Source: an uncultured Jannaschia sp.
Lineage (GTDB): Bacteria; Pseudomonadota; Alphaproteobacteria; Rhodobacterales; Rhodobacteraceae
Assembly: GCF_947494055.1 (NCBI RefSeq)
Contig: NZ_CANLTR010000005.1
Span: forward strand, 186,001 to 250,000
DNA: 64,000 bases
Direction of reading: 5' to 3'
Numbering within the stretch: the first letter of the stretch is position 1; the number at the start of each line of letters is the position of its first letter. The notes under the pieces are model-generated. The model worked only from the letters and a program-made list of their open reading frames with translations. It had not been told where the DNA came from and did not search any database. Positions 32,643 through 35,357 of the stretch are shown here, one piece after another. A program made the translations under genes and the position numbers.

Positions 32643-32675
32643 TTGAAAAATTCTGGTTTGGAACATATCCAGAAC
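32643..32675 (+). promoter_or_regulatory. SOS (LexA) box and promoter of radical-SAM/UdgX operon
   Basis: GAAC-ATATCCA-GAAC at 32661-32675 is, on the other strand, GTTC-N7-GTTC, the LexA binding sequence of alphaproteobacteria such as Rhodobacter. A -35-like TTGAAA (32643-32648), 17-bp spacer and a -10-like TATCCA (32666-32671) overlap it, so LexA would cover the -10. The site is 2 bp upstream of the first fitting ATG of the radical-SAM gene. It was found by reading; no other such box occurs nearby that I noticed. Confidence 0.7.
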
Positions 32676-32677
32676 CT

Positions 32678-33907
32678 ATGGGTAAAATGTCGATCCGGGA
32701 CAAGCTCGCGCTTTTGTCCGATGCCGCGAAGTACGACGCGAGTTGCGCCTCCTCGGGCACCACGAAGCGCAACTCGAAGGATGGTTCGGGGCTCGGTTCG
32801 ACCACCGGCTCGGGGATTTGTCACGCCTATGCGCCGGACGGGCGGTGCATCTCGCTCCTCAAGATCCTGATGACGAACCACTGCATCTACGACTGCGCCT
32901 ATTGCGTGAATCGCGTGAGCAGCAACGTGCAGCGCGCCCGGTTCACGGTCGACGAGGTCGTGTGGCTGACGACCGAGTTCTACCGTCGGAACTACATCGA
33001 AGGGCTGTTTCTCTCCTCCGGCATCATCAAGTCGTCGGACTACACGATGGAGGAGATGGTCCGCATTGCCGAGAAGCTGCGCGCCGGCGGGTTCCGCGGC
33101 TACATCCACCTCAAGACGATCCCTGACGCCGCGCCCGAGTTGATCGAGCGGGCCGGCCTCGTCGCCGACCGCCTCTCGATCAACGTCGAGCTTCCGACCG
33201 ATGCCAGCGTGAAGGCGTTTGCGCCGGAGAAGGACCCCGAGCAGATCCGCGGCGCGATGGGCAAGGTGCGTCTCACCACAGAAGATTACGCCGACAAGTC
33301 GCATACCGGCCGCAAGCGAGGCCGTTTCGCGCCGGCTGGGCAGTCGACGCAGATGATCGTCGGCGCCGATGCCGCGAACGACGCGACGATCCTCGGCAAT
33401 GCCAGCCGTCTTTACGGCGCCTACGGTTTGAAGCGCGTGTATTACTCGGCCTTCTCCCCCATCCCGGACAGCAGCGCCGTGCTGCCGCTCGTCGATCCGC
33501 CGCTGATGCGGGAGCACCGGCTCTACCAGGCGGACTGGCTCCTGCGGTTTTACGATTTCGGACTGGACGAGATCGTCACGCGGGACGGGGCGGGGATGCT
33601 CGACCTTGACATCGACCCGAAGCTCGCCTGGGCGCTGTCGAACCGCGACCGTTTTCCGGTGGACGTGAACCGCGCATCGAAGGAGCTTCTGCTGCGCGTG
33701 CCGGGGTTCGGCACCAAGATCGTGGATCGGATCGTCGCGGCGCGGAAGTCCGCATCTCTGGGCCTCGAGGATATTCGCCGCATGGGCGGGCGGGTGAAGC
33801 AATCGCGCGCCTTCATCACCACGCGCGACCATCATCCCGGGGGCAATCTCGACGCCGAGAATCTCAAGGCCCGCTTCGTGAAGCCGAAGCAGATGGAACT
33901 CTTCTGA
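32678..33907 (+). CDS. DNA repair-linked radical SAM protein
   Basis: A 409-residue radical-SAM protein of the 'putative DNA modification/repair' type that occurs paired with a UdgX gene. The cluster-binding cysteines are C69-x3-C73-x2-C76 (HCIYDCAYCVNR), preceded by AKYDASCASSGTTKR, another conserved Cys region. A helix-hairpin-helix-like DNA-binding part lies at the end (RVPGFGTKIVDRIVAARKSASLGLEDIRRMGG). Start: ATG 32678 is 2 bp after the SOS box; ATG 32687 (MSIRDKL) also fits homologues, and the frame is open to 32624. The partner gene begins one base after this stop. Its reaction is not established. Confidence 0.88.
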   Translation: MGKMSIRDKLALLSDAAKYDASCASSGTTKRNSKDGSGLGSTTGSGICHAYAPDGRCISLLKILMTNHCIYDCAYCVNRVSSNVQRARFTVDEVVWLTTEFYRRNYIEGLFLSSGIIKSSDYTMEEMVRIAEKLRAGGFRGYIHLKTIPDAAPELIERAGLVADRLSINVELPTDASVKAFAPEKDPEQIRGAMGKVRLTTEDYADKSHTGRKRGRFAPAGQSTQMIVGADAANDATILGNASRLYGAYGLKRVYYSAFSPIPDSSAVLPLVDPPLMREHRLYQADWLLRFYDFGLDEIVTRDGAGMLDLDIDPKLAWALSNRDRFPVDVNRASKELLLRVPGFGTKIVDRIVAARKSASLGLEDIRRMGGRVKQSRAFITTRDHHPGGNLDAENLKARFVKPKQMELF

Positions 33908-33908
33908 G

Positions 33909-35357
33909 ATGTACGCCCCGCGCCTTCCCCGCATCGGCACCTACGAGGCCTGGCGGGACGTGGCGCGGCGTCTCGCCTCGGCGGACGTCCCGCCCGAGGA
34001 CGTGGACTGGGCCCTCGAGGGCGAGAGCGACGCGATGTTCGACGACGCGTTGCCGGAGGCCGGGCGGCCGCTCGCCGTCACCAAGGCGTTCCTGACGCTC
34101 AGTCGCGACCTGATCCCCGAGCGGACGGGGCTGGGCATGCGGTTGGCCTATTCGCTGTTGACGCGAACTCAGGGACGGCCGGACCTGCTCGCGAACCGCG
34201 CCGACGAACAGGTCGCGCGCGCCCGCGACATCGCCAAGGCGATCCATCGCGACATCCACAAGATGCATGCCTTCGTCCGCTTCCAGGAGCTGGCCCCGGA
34301 CACCGAACGCCCCGACGGGCGCCGCGCCTTCGCCGCATGGTTCGAGCCGGAGCACCGGATCGAGGAGCCGGTGGCAAGCTTCTTCGTCGACCGGTTCGGA
34401 GACATGGACTGGCGGATCGTCACGCCGGAGGTGACGCTCACCTATGCCGGAAGAGAGCTTTCGATGGAGGCCGTGGCCGCGACGCGACCGAATGCCACGG
34501 ATCCGCTCGAACAGCTCTGGACGACCTATTACAGCAACATCTTCAACCCCGCCAGGCTGAAGCCAGACGCGATGCGGGCGGAGATGCCGAAGAAGTACTG
34601 GCGGAACCTTCCCGAGGCGCAGGCGATTCCTTCCCTGATCGCCGGCGCACGGGCTCGCGTGGCCGAGATGCAGGCCGCCGGGCCCAGCCTTCCGGCGCCG
34701 CAATCGCTCAGACGGAAGGATGACGTCATGGCCACCCAACCCGGACCCGACCTCTTCGCCGCCACAAATCTGGAGGGCATCGCCCGCGACGCGAAGGGCT
34801 GCACCCGCTGTCCGCTCTACGGCCCCGCCACGCAGACCGTCTTCGGCGAGGGGCCGGAGGACGCGCCGCTGATGTTCGTGGGCGAGCAGCCGGGCGACCG
34901 CGAGGACATTGCCGGGCGCCCCTTCGTCGGTCCCGCGGGGCAACTCTTCGACCAGGTCGTCGAACAGGCGGGGATCGACCGGAAAGCGGCATACGTCACG
35001 AATGCGGTGAAGCATTTCAAGTTCGTCCAGAAGGGCAAGCGCCGCATCCACCAGAAGCCCGGTGGCGGCGAGATCAGCGCCTGCCGGTGGTGGCTCGAGC
35101 AGGAATTGACGACGGTCGACCCGAAGGTCGTCGTGGCGCTCGGCGCGACGGCGCTGCATTCGCTGACCGGGGACGGCAAGGGGATCCTGAAACGCCGCGG
35201 CCAGATGGAGGAGACGCGTGACGGGCGGCCCCTGATGGTCACCGTGCATCCGAGTTTTCTTCTGCGCCTGCCCGACGAGCGTACTCGTGCGGCCGAGACG
35301 GAGCTGTTCCGGCGCGACCTCGAGGCGGTCCGCGAGGCGCTGGCGCAGGCGGGGTAA
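33909..35357 (+). CDS. DUF4130 / UdgX fusion, uracil-DNA binding protein
   Basis: A 482-residue fusion. Residues 1-265 are a DUF4130 domain of unknown function, with AWFEPEHRIEEPVASFFVDRFGDMDWRI and WTTYYSNIFNPARLKPDAMRAEMPKKYW. Residues 274-482 are UdgX, family-4-like uracil glycosylase: four Cys for a 4Fe-4S centre are suggested by GCTRCPLY and later Cys, motif A is GEQPGDREDIAGRPFVGPAG (325-344), and the K377-R-R-I-H381 loop is the hallmark of UdgX, whose His forms a covalent bond to the abasic site. Motif B is VHPSFLLRLP. It follows the radical-SAM gene by 1 bp. UdgX traps uracil-containing DNA; its role with the SAM enzyme is not known. Confidence 0.92.
   Translation: MYAPRLPRIGTYEAWRDVARRLASADVPPEDVDWALEGESDAMFDDALPEAGRPLAVTKAFLTLSRDLIPERTGLGMRLAYSLLTRTQGRPDLLANRADEQVARARDIAKAIHRDIHKMHAFVRFQELAPDTERPDGRRAFAAWFEPEHRIEEPVASFFVDRFGDMDWRIVTPEVTLTYAGRELSMEAVAATRPNATDPLEQLWTTYYSNIFNPARLKPDAMRAEMPKKYWRNLPEAQAIPSLIAGARARVAEMQAAGPSLPAPQSLRRKDDVMATQPGPDLFAATNLEGIARDAKGCTRCPLYGPATQTVFGEGPEDAPLMFVGEQPGDREDIAGRPFVGPAGQLFDQVVEQAGIDRKAAYVTNAVKHFKFVQKGKRRIHQKPGGGEISACRWWLEQELTTVDPKVVVALGATALHSLTGDGKGILKRRGQMEETRDGRPLMVTVHPSFLLRLPDERTRAAETELFRRDLEAVREALAQAG

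Follow-up and report, generated by a model that had tools for sequence, protein, structure and literature searches.

A predicted LexA-controlled operon of a radical-SAM protein and a DUF4130-UdgX fusion in Alphaproteobacteria

SOS regulation of a uracil-DNA-glycosylase (UDG) base-excision system has been reported in Verrucomicrobia and Alphaproteobacteria, and the gene pair COG1573-COG4277 occurs in predicted Bacteroidetes networks, according to the available text of PMC8565304, which names Erill 2016 and da Rocha 2008 (its references 7 and 65) as sources for the SOS-UDG link. The operon analysed here is alike in having two genes, one of which includes a UDG, under apparent LexA control. It differs in its UdgX-type glycosylase and constant DUF4130 partner, and in its predicted leaderless promoter module and extra cysteines, none of which is in the available account of the COG1573-COG4277 base-excision system (PMC8565304). 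SOS control of such operons (COG1573-COG4277) is already published. Within the literature searched, the joining of the SOS link to UdgX and DUF4130 and the control comparison with stand-alone UdgX appear to be new; the prediction of a leaderless promoter module and the three extra cysteines are further new detail. We take COG4277 to be the radical-SAM family of our operon.

The glycosylase itself is best known from Mycobacterium smegmatis, whose UdgX binds abasic DNA covalently after uracil excision; the family is defined by a Q in motif A and the KRRIH R-loop (PMC10359453, available text). Our protein shares the fold, the GEQPG motif A, the KRRIH loop with its linking His and an HPSxLLR-type motif B, and is 44–49% identical to the UdgX structures that its structure model matches. 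It differs in being the C-terminal half of a DUF4130 fusion preceded by a LexA box, with 482 aa in the fusion and 205–229 aa in the solved UdgX chains. The words "SOS" and "operon" are absent from the available text of two UdgX papers (PMC10359453, PMC10776899), and no paper joining UdgX with radical SAM, LexA or the SOS response was found in the literature searched.

For the other two components, a figure legend connects DUF4130 to SplB-like radical-SAM proteins and to UDGs (PMC3765255, available part), and SplB-like and PA0069-family proteins resemble ours as radical-SAM proteins tied to the SOS response (available text of PMC8565304 and PMC3765255). A PA0069-family gene also stands behind a box in the genome studied here, but its NCBIfam family is NF033668 and that of our protein TIGR03916. 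PA0069 and SplB presumably belong together. A Caulobacter vibrioides strain carries the pair (locus L126), and CC2333 is among the four UDG-family genes of Caulobacter (PMC1839093, available text). Uracil, glycosylase and radical SAM do not occur in the main text of three Caulobacter SOS and repair papers (PMC12700426, PMC13384398, PMC12907096).

Operon layout and promoter module

The two genes lie in the window, i.e., the whole stretch of 64,000 nucleotides that was analysed, with the following features (window positions):

32643–32648, + strand: -35 element TTGAAA (T.66 T.59 G.61 at -18 to -16 from the start of the box in 122 aligned promoters)
32661–32675, - strand: LexA box GTTC-TGGATAT-GTTC, read as GAAC-ATATCCA-GAAC on the + strand
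32666–32671, + strand: -10 element TATCCA, between the half-sites inside the LexA box (same place conserved in 122 promoters)
32678–33907, + strand: radical-SAM protein of 409 aa, TIGR03916 (rSAM_link_UDG; 566.5 bits, cut-off 343.5)
32744–32848, + strand: three extra cysteines, C23, C48 and C57 counted from the ATG at 32678
32882–32905, + strand: radical-SAM cluster motif C-x3-C-x2-C
33659–33751, + strand: helix-hairpin-helix motif PF12836, residues 328–358 (30.2 bits, cut-off 27)
33909–35357, + strand: DUF4130-UdgX fusion of 482 aa, starting one base after the radical-SAM stop codon
33936–34619, + strand: TIGR03915/DUF4130 domain (170 bits, cut-off 112.25)
34626–35330, + strand: UdgX domain TIGR03914 (326.4 bits, cut-off 189.95)
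34881–34898, + strand: UdgX motif A GEQPGD, with the Q of M. smegmatis UdgX
35037–35051, + strand: KRRIH R-loop ending in H381, the counterpart of the DNA-linking H109 in M. smegmatis UdgX
35247–35267, + strand: UdgX motif B HPSFLLR, read in the sequence

Three further family models were scored. The DUF4130 part matched PF13566 with 126.2 bits against a cut-off of 27, the UdgX part lay just over the cut-off of the family-4 UDG model TIGR00758 (125.6 against 125.3 bits), and the radical-SAM protein fell just under the gathering cut-off of Pfam Radical_SAM, PF04055 (28.4 against 29.5 bits).

A sequence-only reading of the locus had placed a LexA-type site 2 bp ahead of the first ATG, overlapped by a -35 and a -10 element 17 bp apart, and inspection of the letters agrees. 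The segment GAACATATCCAGAAC (32661–32675) is an exact alphaproteobacterial LexA box that surrounds the -10 element, has GAAC half-sites at 32661–32664 and 32672–32675, and is separated from the ATG at 32678 by the spacer CT; the spacing between TTGAAA and TATCCA is 17 bp. GTTC-N7-GTTC occurs once in the whole window, where 1.41 occurrences are expected by chance, and at least one was present in 75 of 100 shuffles of the window. Since the in-window count equals chance, the motif alone is no evidence; we count it as real because it is conserved across loci.

When 122 non-identical promoter segments were aligned on the box, conservation was limited to the -35 element, the box, the -10 element and the ATG, with the remaining bases near background. 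Between the two GAAC half-sites the alignment reads T.92 A.87 T.58 A.46 A.48 T.58. The first in-frame start codon follows the box by 2 nt in 63 of these segments and by 0–6 nt in 101, and the ATG stands 2–3 nt after the box in all nine congeners (9/9), which supports 32678 as the start. Judged from the aligned letters, the -35, box, -10 and ATG are one compact module in which the putative operator encloses the -10 element. The usual distance from a -10 element to the transcription start is about 7 nt; given this distance and a -10 element inside the operator, we predict a leaderless or nearly leaderless mRNA whose first base is the A of the ATG or lies close to it.

Conservation of the operator within and beyond the class

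The check that had been proposed, a scan for the box upstream of orthologous radical-SAM genes in related genomes, returned the exact box at 126 of 130 alphaproteobacterial loci, counted within -70 to +10 of the start of the TIGR03916 family match. By set, these were 77 of 80 named loci, 10 of 11 in the class sample (own genome included), 30 of 30 in the order and 9 of 9 in congeners. Elsewhere in the named loci the exact box was found in only 9 of 6886 80-bp tiles. Other half-site spacings between N2 and N13 occurred at three loci or fewer per set. The backward motif turned up at two named loci (of 80) and was absent from the 50 loci of the other sets. The box is oriented as in our locus in 122 of the 126 cases and only in the opposite direction in four. 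The named loci, the 80 best among at least 586 confirmed candidates, are close relatives taken as Alphaproteobacteria by their titles, and the order sample comprises the best-scoring 30 loci of 123 over-cut-off genomes, plus the nine congeners and the own genome; alphaproteobacterial hits of the phylum scan outside these sets were left out of the 130. In the class set, 11 of 192 genomes have an over-cut-off TIGR03916; the figure is 123 of 292 for the order set and 103 of 397 for the phylum set.

The exact box was absent at four of the 130 loci (L010, L081, L103 and L124). Two of these, L081 and L103, deviate from it by one half-site base each; at L124 the half-sites are scattered, and L010 has a single one. 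The genome of L010 (G166) is 1.5 Mb long and 92% complete, and its best LexA match (84.5 bits, below cut-off) spans the C-terminal half only, in a frame that by eye looks like UmuD. This single case fits a loss of the box along with LexA. Two box-less loci, those of G166 and of G544 from another class, lie in genomes without an over-cut-off LexA.

In the other classes of the phylum the motif changes. We examined all 35 over-cut-off TIGR03916 loci from these classes, and the alphaproteobacterial box was present at none of them (0/35). Exact CTGT-N8-ACAG, which we take to be the beta/gammaproteobacterial LexA box, was found within -100 to +10 at 25 loci and with one mismatch at five more, compared with none of 140 control tiles. 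From phylum and motif, we infer that the 35 genomes are beta- and gammaproteobacterial. The site was missing within one mismatch at five loci (G544, G742, G561, G696 and G770). In G544 the LexA-like match is C-terminal only (62.8 bits), and in G742 the LexA match of 99.6 bits is below cut-off. G561, G696 and G770, which belong to one genus, have an over-cut-off LexA and a TTAGTAGTAATACTACTAA-like TTAG/TACTA-type sequence before lexA but not before the pair. LexA control may have been lost in these three genomes, and they count against universal LexA control.

At the loci of these three genomes (L179, L191 and L202) an inverted repeat, GTCTCAT-N3-ATGAGAC, replaces the LexA box about 50 bp before the family match, with one mismatch in the copy of G696. 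It was rejected as another LexA site, occurring in only one or two places per genome and not before lexA.

Outside the phylum, six patterns, including two Bacteroidetes motifs of PMC8565304 for the Spirosoma test, were tried on plasmid loci of Spirosoma, Pusillibacter, Acetoanaerobium and Gemmatirosa and on a phage-type record (L236). At the Pusillibacter (Clostridia) locus, two GAAC-N4-GTTC sites begin 156 and 185 bp upstream, ahead of a small annotated frame; with the six patterns, no box was found at the Spirosoma, Acetoanaerobium, Gemmatirosa and L236 loci. GAAC-N4-GTTC is presumably the Bacillota-type LexA site. The Gemmatirosa match is diverged and spans residues 56–378 only. At the Spirosoma and Pusillibacter loci, the annotation names a TIGR03915 protein and no neighbouring UdgX. 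The plasmid collection holds 158 records with the radical-SAM gene (Phaeobacter 58, Paracoccus 15, Azospirillum 11, and others), 142 of which are typed non-mobilizable.

The genome that contains the window, placed in the Alphaproteobacteria by its named relatives, encodes its own LexA, recognised by profile match on contig C9, and holds 160 GTTC-N7-GTTC sites, compared with 55 for the backward control pattern. One site lies 56 bases before the LexA family match; the longest lexA frame extends past it, and the real lexA start decides how this site is read. Two more lie 96 and 128 bases before the RecA match. The genome shows both signs looked for in a member of the alphaproteobacterial LexA regulon, an encoded LexA and the motif near lexA and recA. 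Apart from the two at recA, 15 of the 160 sites were inspected, in 13 stretches chosen for AT-rich spacers or proximity to lexA. A recognised SOS-type gene stood beside the motif in four of these stretches, i.e., lexA, uvrA, an IMS-domain (ImuB/DinB-type) frame and a PA0069-family radical-SAM gene; the other nine showed no recognised SOS-type gene in the frames scanned, which in both counts were a subset of all frames. With such a gene in only 4 of 13 stretches, many of the exact matches here probably do not mark SOS genes.

Two of the inspected sites are of interest in themselves. The PA0069-family gene, a second radical-SAM gene (L220:1227-2318, contig C11), begins 12 bp behind its GTTC-N7-GTTC, and the genome may thus have two LexA-controlled radical-SAM proteins. 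On contig C10 (L219:1162-1520, about 21161), the common module GAACATATAGTGAAC stands 14 bp before a 109-aa frame that matched neither Pfam nor NCBIfam at the thresholds applied and is possibly an undescribed small SOS protein.

The probable regulated core and its proteins

We compared what accompanies the box. A DUF4130 homologue lies downstream of the radical-SAM gene at all 121 alphaproteobacterial loci tested (121/121), and a UDG homologue at 105 of them, with about 1500 bases of flank for class and order loci. Among the 80 named loci, 70 have fusions and 10 are without a UDG domain in the fetched flank; the exact box is present at nine of these 10, and the tenth, L103, has it with one mismatch. 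A UDG is also absent at four class and two order loci, less securely than at the named loci given their flank of about 1500 bases. In G136 and G146, the whole genome holds UdgX-model matches only below the cut-off (139.2 and 134.3 against 189.95 bits), and the box is present.

As a control, we took 12 stand-alone UdgX genes of the class sample, including two pairs from the same genus, with no radical-SAM or DUF4130 motif within about 1500 bases on either side. The exact box was found at one of them (1/12), compared with 10 of 11 loci of the pair in the same sample. This one gene (L251, in G003) carries the same operator module, GAACGTATAGTGAAC, at -80 from the match and 2 nt before a possible start, so that UdgX alone can have a LexA-type box of its own. 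One-mismatch sites lie 90–101 bp before the match at L247 and L249, from one genus, and further upstream at L242, L245, L250 and L253, where they were left uncounted. On these counts, the predicted SOS control tracks the radical-SAM/DUF4130 pair more than UdgX. Because the box persists without a UDG domain and stand-alone UdgX genes are mostly box-less, the SOS-controlled core is more likely to be radical-SAM plus DUF4130, to which UdgX is commonly added. The alternative of UdgX as the regulated core was not supported by the 1 of 12 stand-alone genes or by the genomes that keep the box without an over-cut-off UdgX.

The radical-SAM protein has six cysteines in total, i.e., the SAM-cluster triad and the three extra ones (C20, C45 and C54 in the numbering of alignment A3), and none of the six varies among 42 aligned sequences. 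In the other classes of the phylum, all 35 sequences also show the motifs around C20 and C45-x8-C54. This invariance suggests that the three extra cysteines may hold an auxiliary Fe-S cluster. The structure model has a pLDDT of 80.8, with residues 20–54, the stretch of these cysteines, below 50, and gave 63 fold matches with E up to 0.001, the best 50 of which were examined. Biotin synthase, HydE, HydG, ThiH and lipoyl synthase are among the best of these 50, and MiaB and others are also present; TM-scores by query length reach at most 0.44 and identities are 10–19%. Biotin/lipoyl-synthase-type enzymes carry an auxiliary cluster and resemble our protein in having extra conserved cysteines beside the SAM triad. 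They differ at these low identities, and our protein has a helix-hairpin-helix and a C-x24-C-x8-C spacing unlike the cysteine pattern of lipoyl synthase. A sequence search of the PDB for radical-SAM relatives gave weak matches only (best E 0.023). In NCBIfam at E 0.001 the protein matched TIGR03916 only, and no SplB-type family model.

The membership of the fusion protein in the UdgX family, claimed from its KRRIH loop, holds on wider grounds: TIGR03914 is over its cut-off, and the Q of motif A, the KRRIH loop with its His and motif B are all in place. The commonest variants among relatives retain motif A, the KRRIH loop and motif B. The fusion was modelled with a pLDDT of 90.3 and a pTM of 0.61, and 48 of its 50 listed fold matches carry the name UDG, UdgX or TDG, the exceptions being 9qhs_A (DNA polymerase) and 3ikb_A (conserved protein). 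These matches are taken to cover the UDG half. The further claim, of uracil or abasic-site processing under SOS control, stands in part: the SOS control is backed by the comparison of loci, and the uracil or abasic-site role derives from the UdgX part only.

Competing explanations and a model

Taken together, the two genes very probably form an SOS operon, with a LexA-type operator fused to the promoter ahead of the radical-SAM and DUF4130-UdgX genes. This reading draws on the box, found at 126 of 130 loci and in 9 of 6886 tiles, on the switch of motif between classes and on the lexA, recA and uvrA sites of the own genome; box conservation and motif switch in particular give strong comparative support to the LexA control first proposed from the letters. 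The motif could instead have arisen by chance in a GC-rich genome, or have been kept as promoter or start-codon context, with no LexA binding. Both half-sites are kept at nearly all loci with other spacings rare, CTGT-N8-ACAG substitutes in the other classes, and lexA, recA and uvrA have the motif nearby, all of which speaks against such an origin. It is true that one match per window is the chance level, that 160 exact genome sites are far above the expected size of an SOS regulon, and that the N7 spacer is the -10 element, so that its conservation is partly promoter conservation. A chance motif is nonetheless rejected, by conservation and not by the in-window count, and we give this explanation as a whole almost no credence.

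A different question is which gene the SOS control serves. If it belonged to UdgX, the operon would be mainly a uracil or abasic-site trap, with the radical-SAM protein serving UdgX, for example in adduct release. UdgX is fused to the core in 70 of the 80 named loci, the stand-alone gene of L251 has the same box and two others have their one-mismatch site 90–101 bp upstream; however, nine of the 10 named loci without a UDG domain in the fetched flank keep the exact box, as do G136 and G146, where UDG-family matches are weaker and none exceeds the UdgX cut-off. With stand-alone UdgX exactly boxed in one case of 12, and with the Spirosoma and Pusillibacter TIGR03915 proteins annotated without UdgX, we consider a UdgX-centred operon improbable. 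Somewhat less so, though still unlikely, is that the radical-SAM protein resembles spore photoproduct lyase and, assisted by DUF4130, reverses a pyrimidine photoproduct directly. A DNA substrate would suit the helix-hairpin-helix, but NCBIfam matches TIGR03916 only, no spore photoproduct lyase is among the 50 listed of 63 fold matches, and the same genome has a separate PA0069-family radical-SAM gene behind a box of its own.

Under the preferred reading of an SOS operon, LexA bound across the -10 element would exclude RNA polymerase, and RecA filaments on damaged single-stranded DNA would trigger its self-cleavage. Transcription would then start at the ATG or a few bases from it and yield a nearly leaderless mRNA. 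The core radical-SAM enzyme would have one SAM cluster, probably one auxiliary Fe-S cluster and a helix-hairpin-helix grip on DNA, and together with DUF4130 it may work on a damaged base or sugar. The UdgX half of the fusion would excise uracil, stay covalently on the abasic site, as M. smegmatis UdgX does, and shield that site at damaged forks. More tentatively, and with rather more doubt than confidence, we propose that radical-SAM plus DUF4130 represents a widespread, undescribed LexA-induced repair chemistry: a two-cluster helix-hairpin-helix enzyme would remove or rewrite an SOS lesion, the UdgX add-on would hold abasic sites, and the operator would have been retained, or re-created from the local LexA motif, in two LexA classes and, by one locus, in a third.

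The presence of UdgX in a LexA-type operon with a constant radical-SAM and DUF4130 partner would offer a setting in which both can be tested, and it points to the radical-SAM/DUF4130 pair, more than to uracil excision, as the place to look for the missing chemistry.
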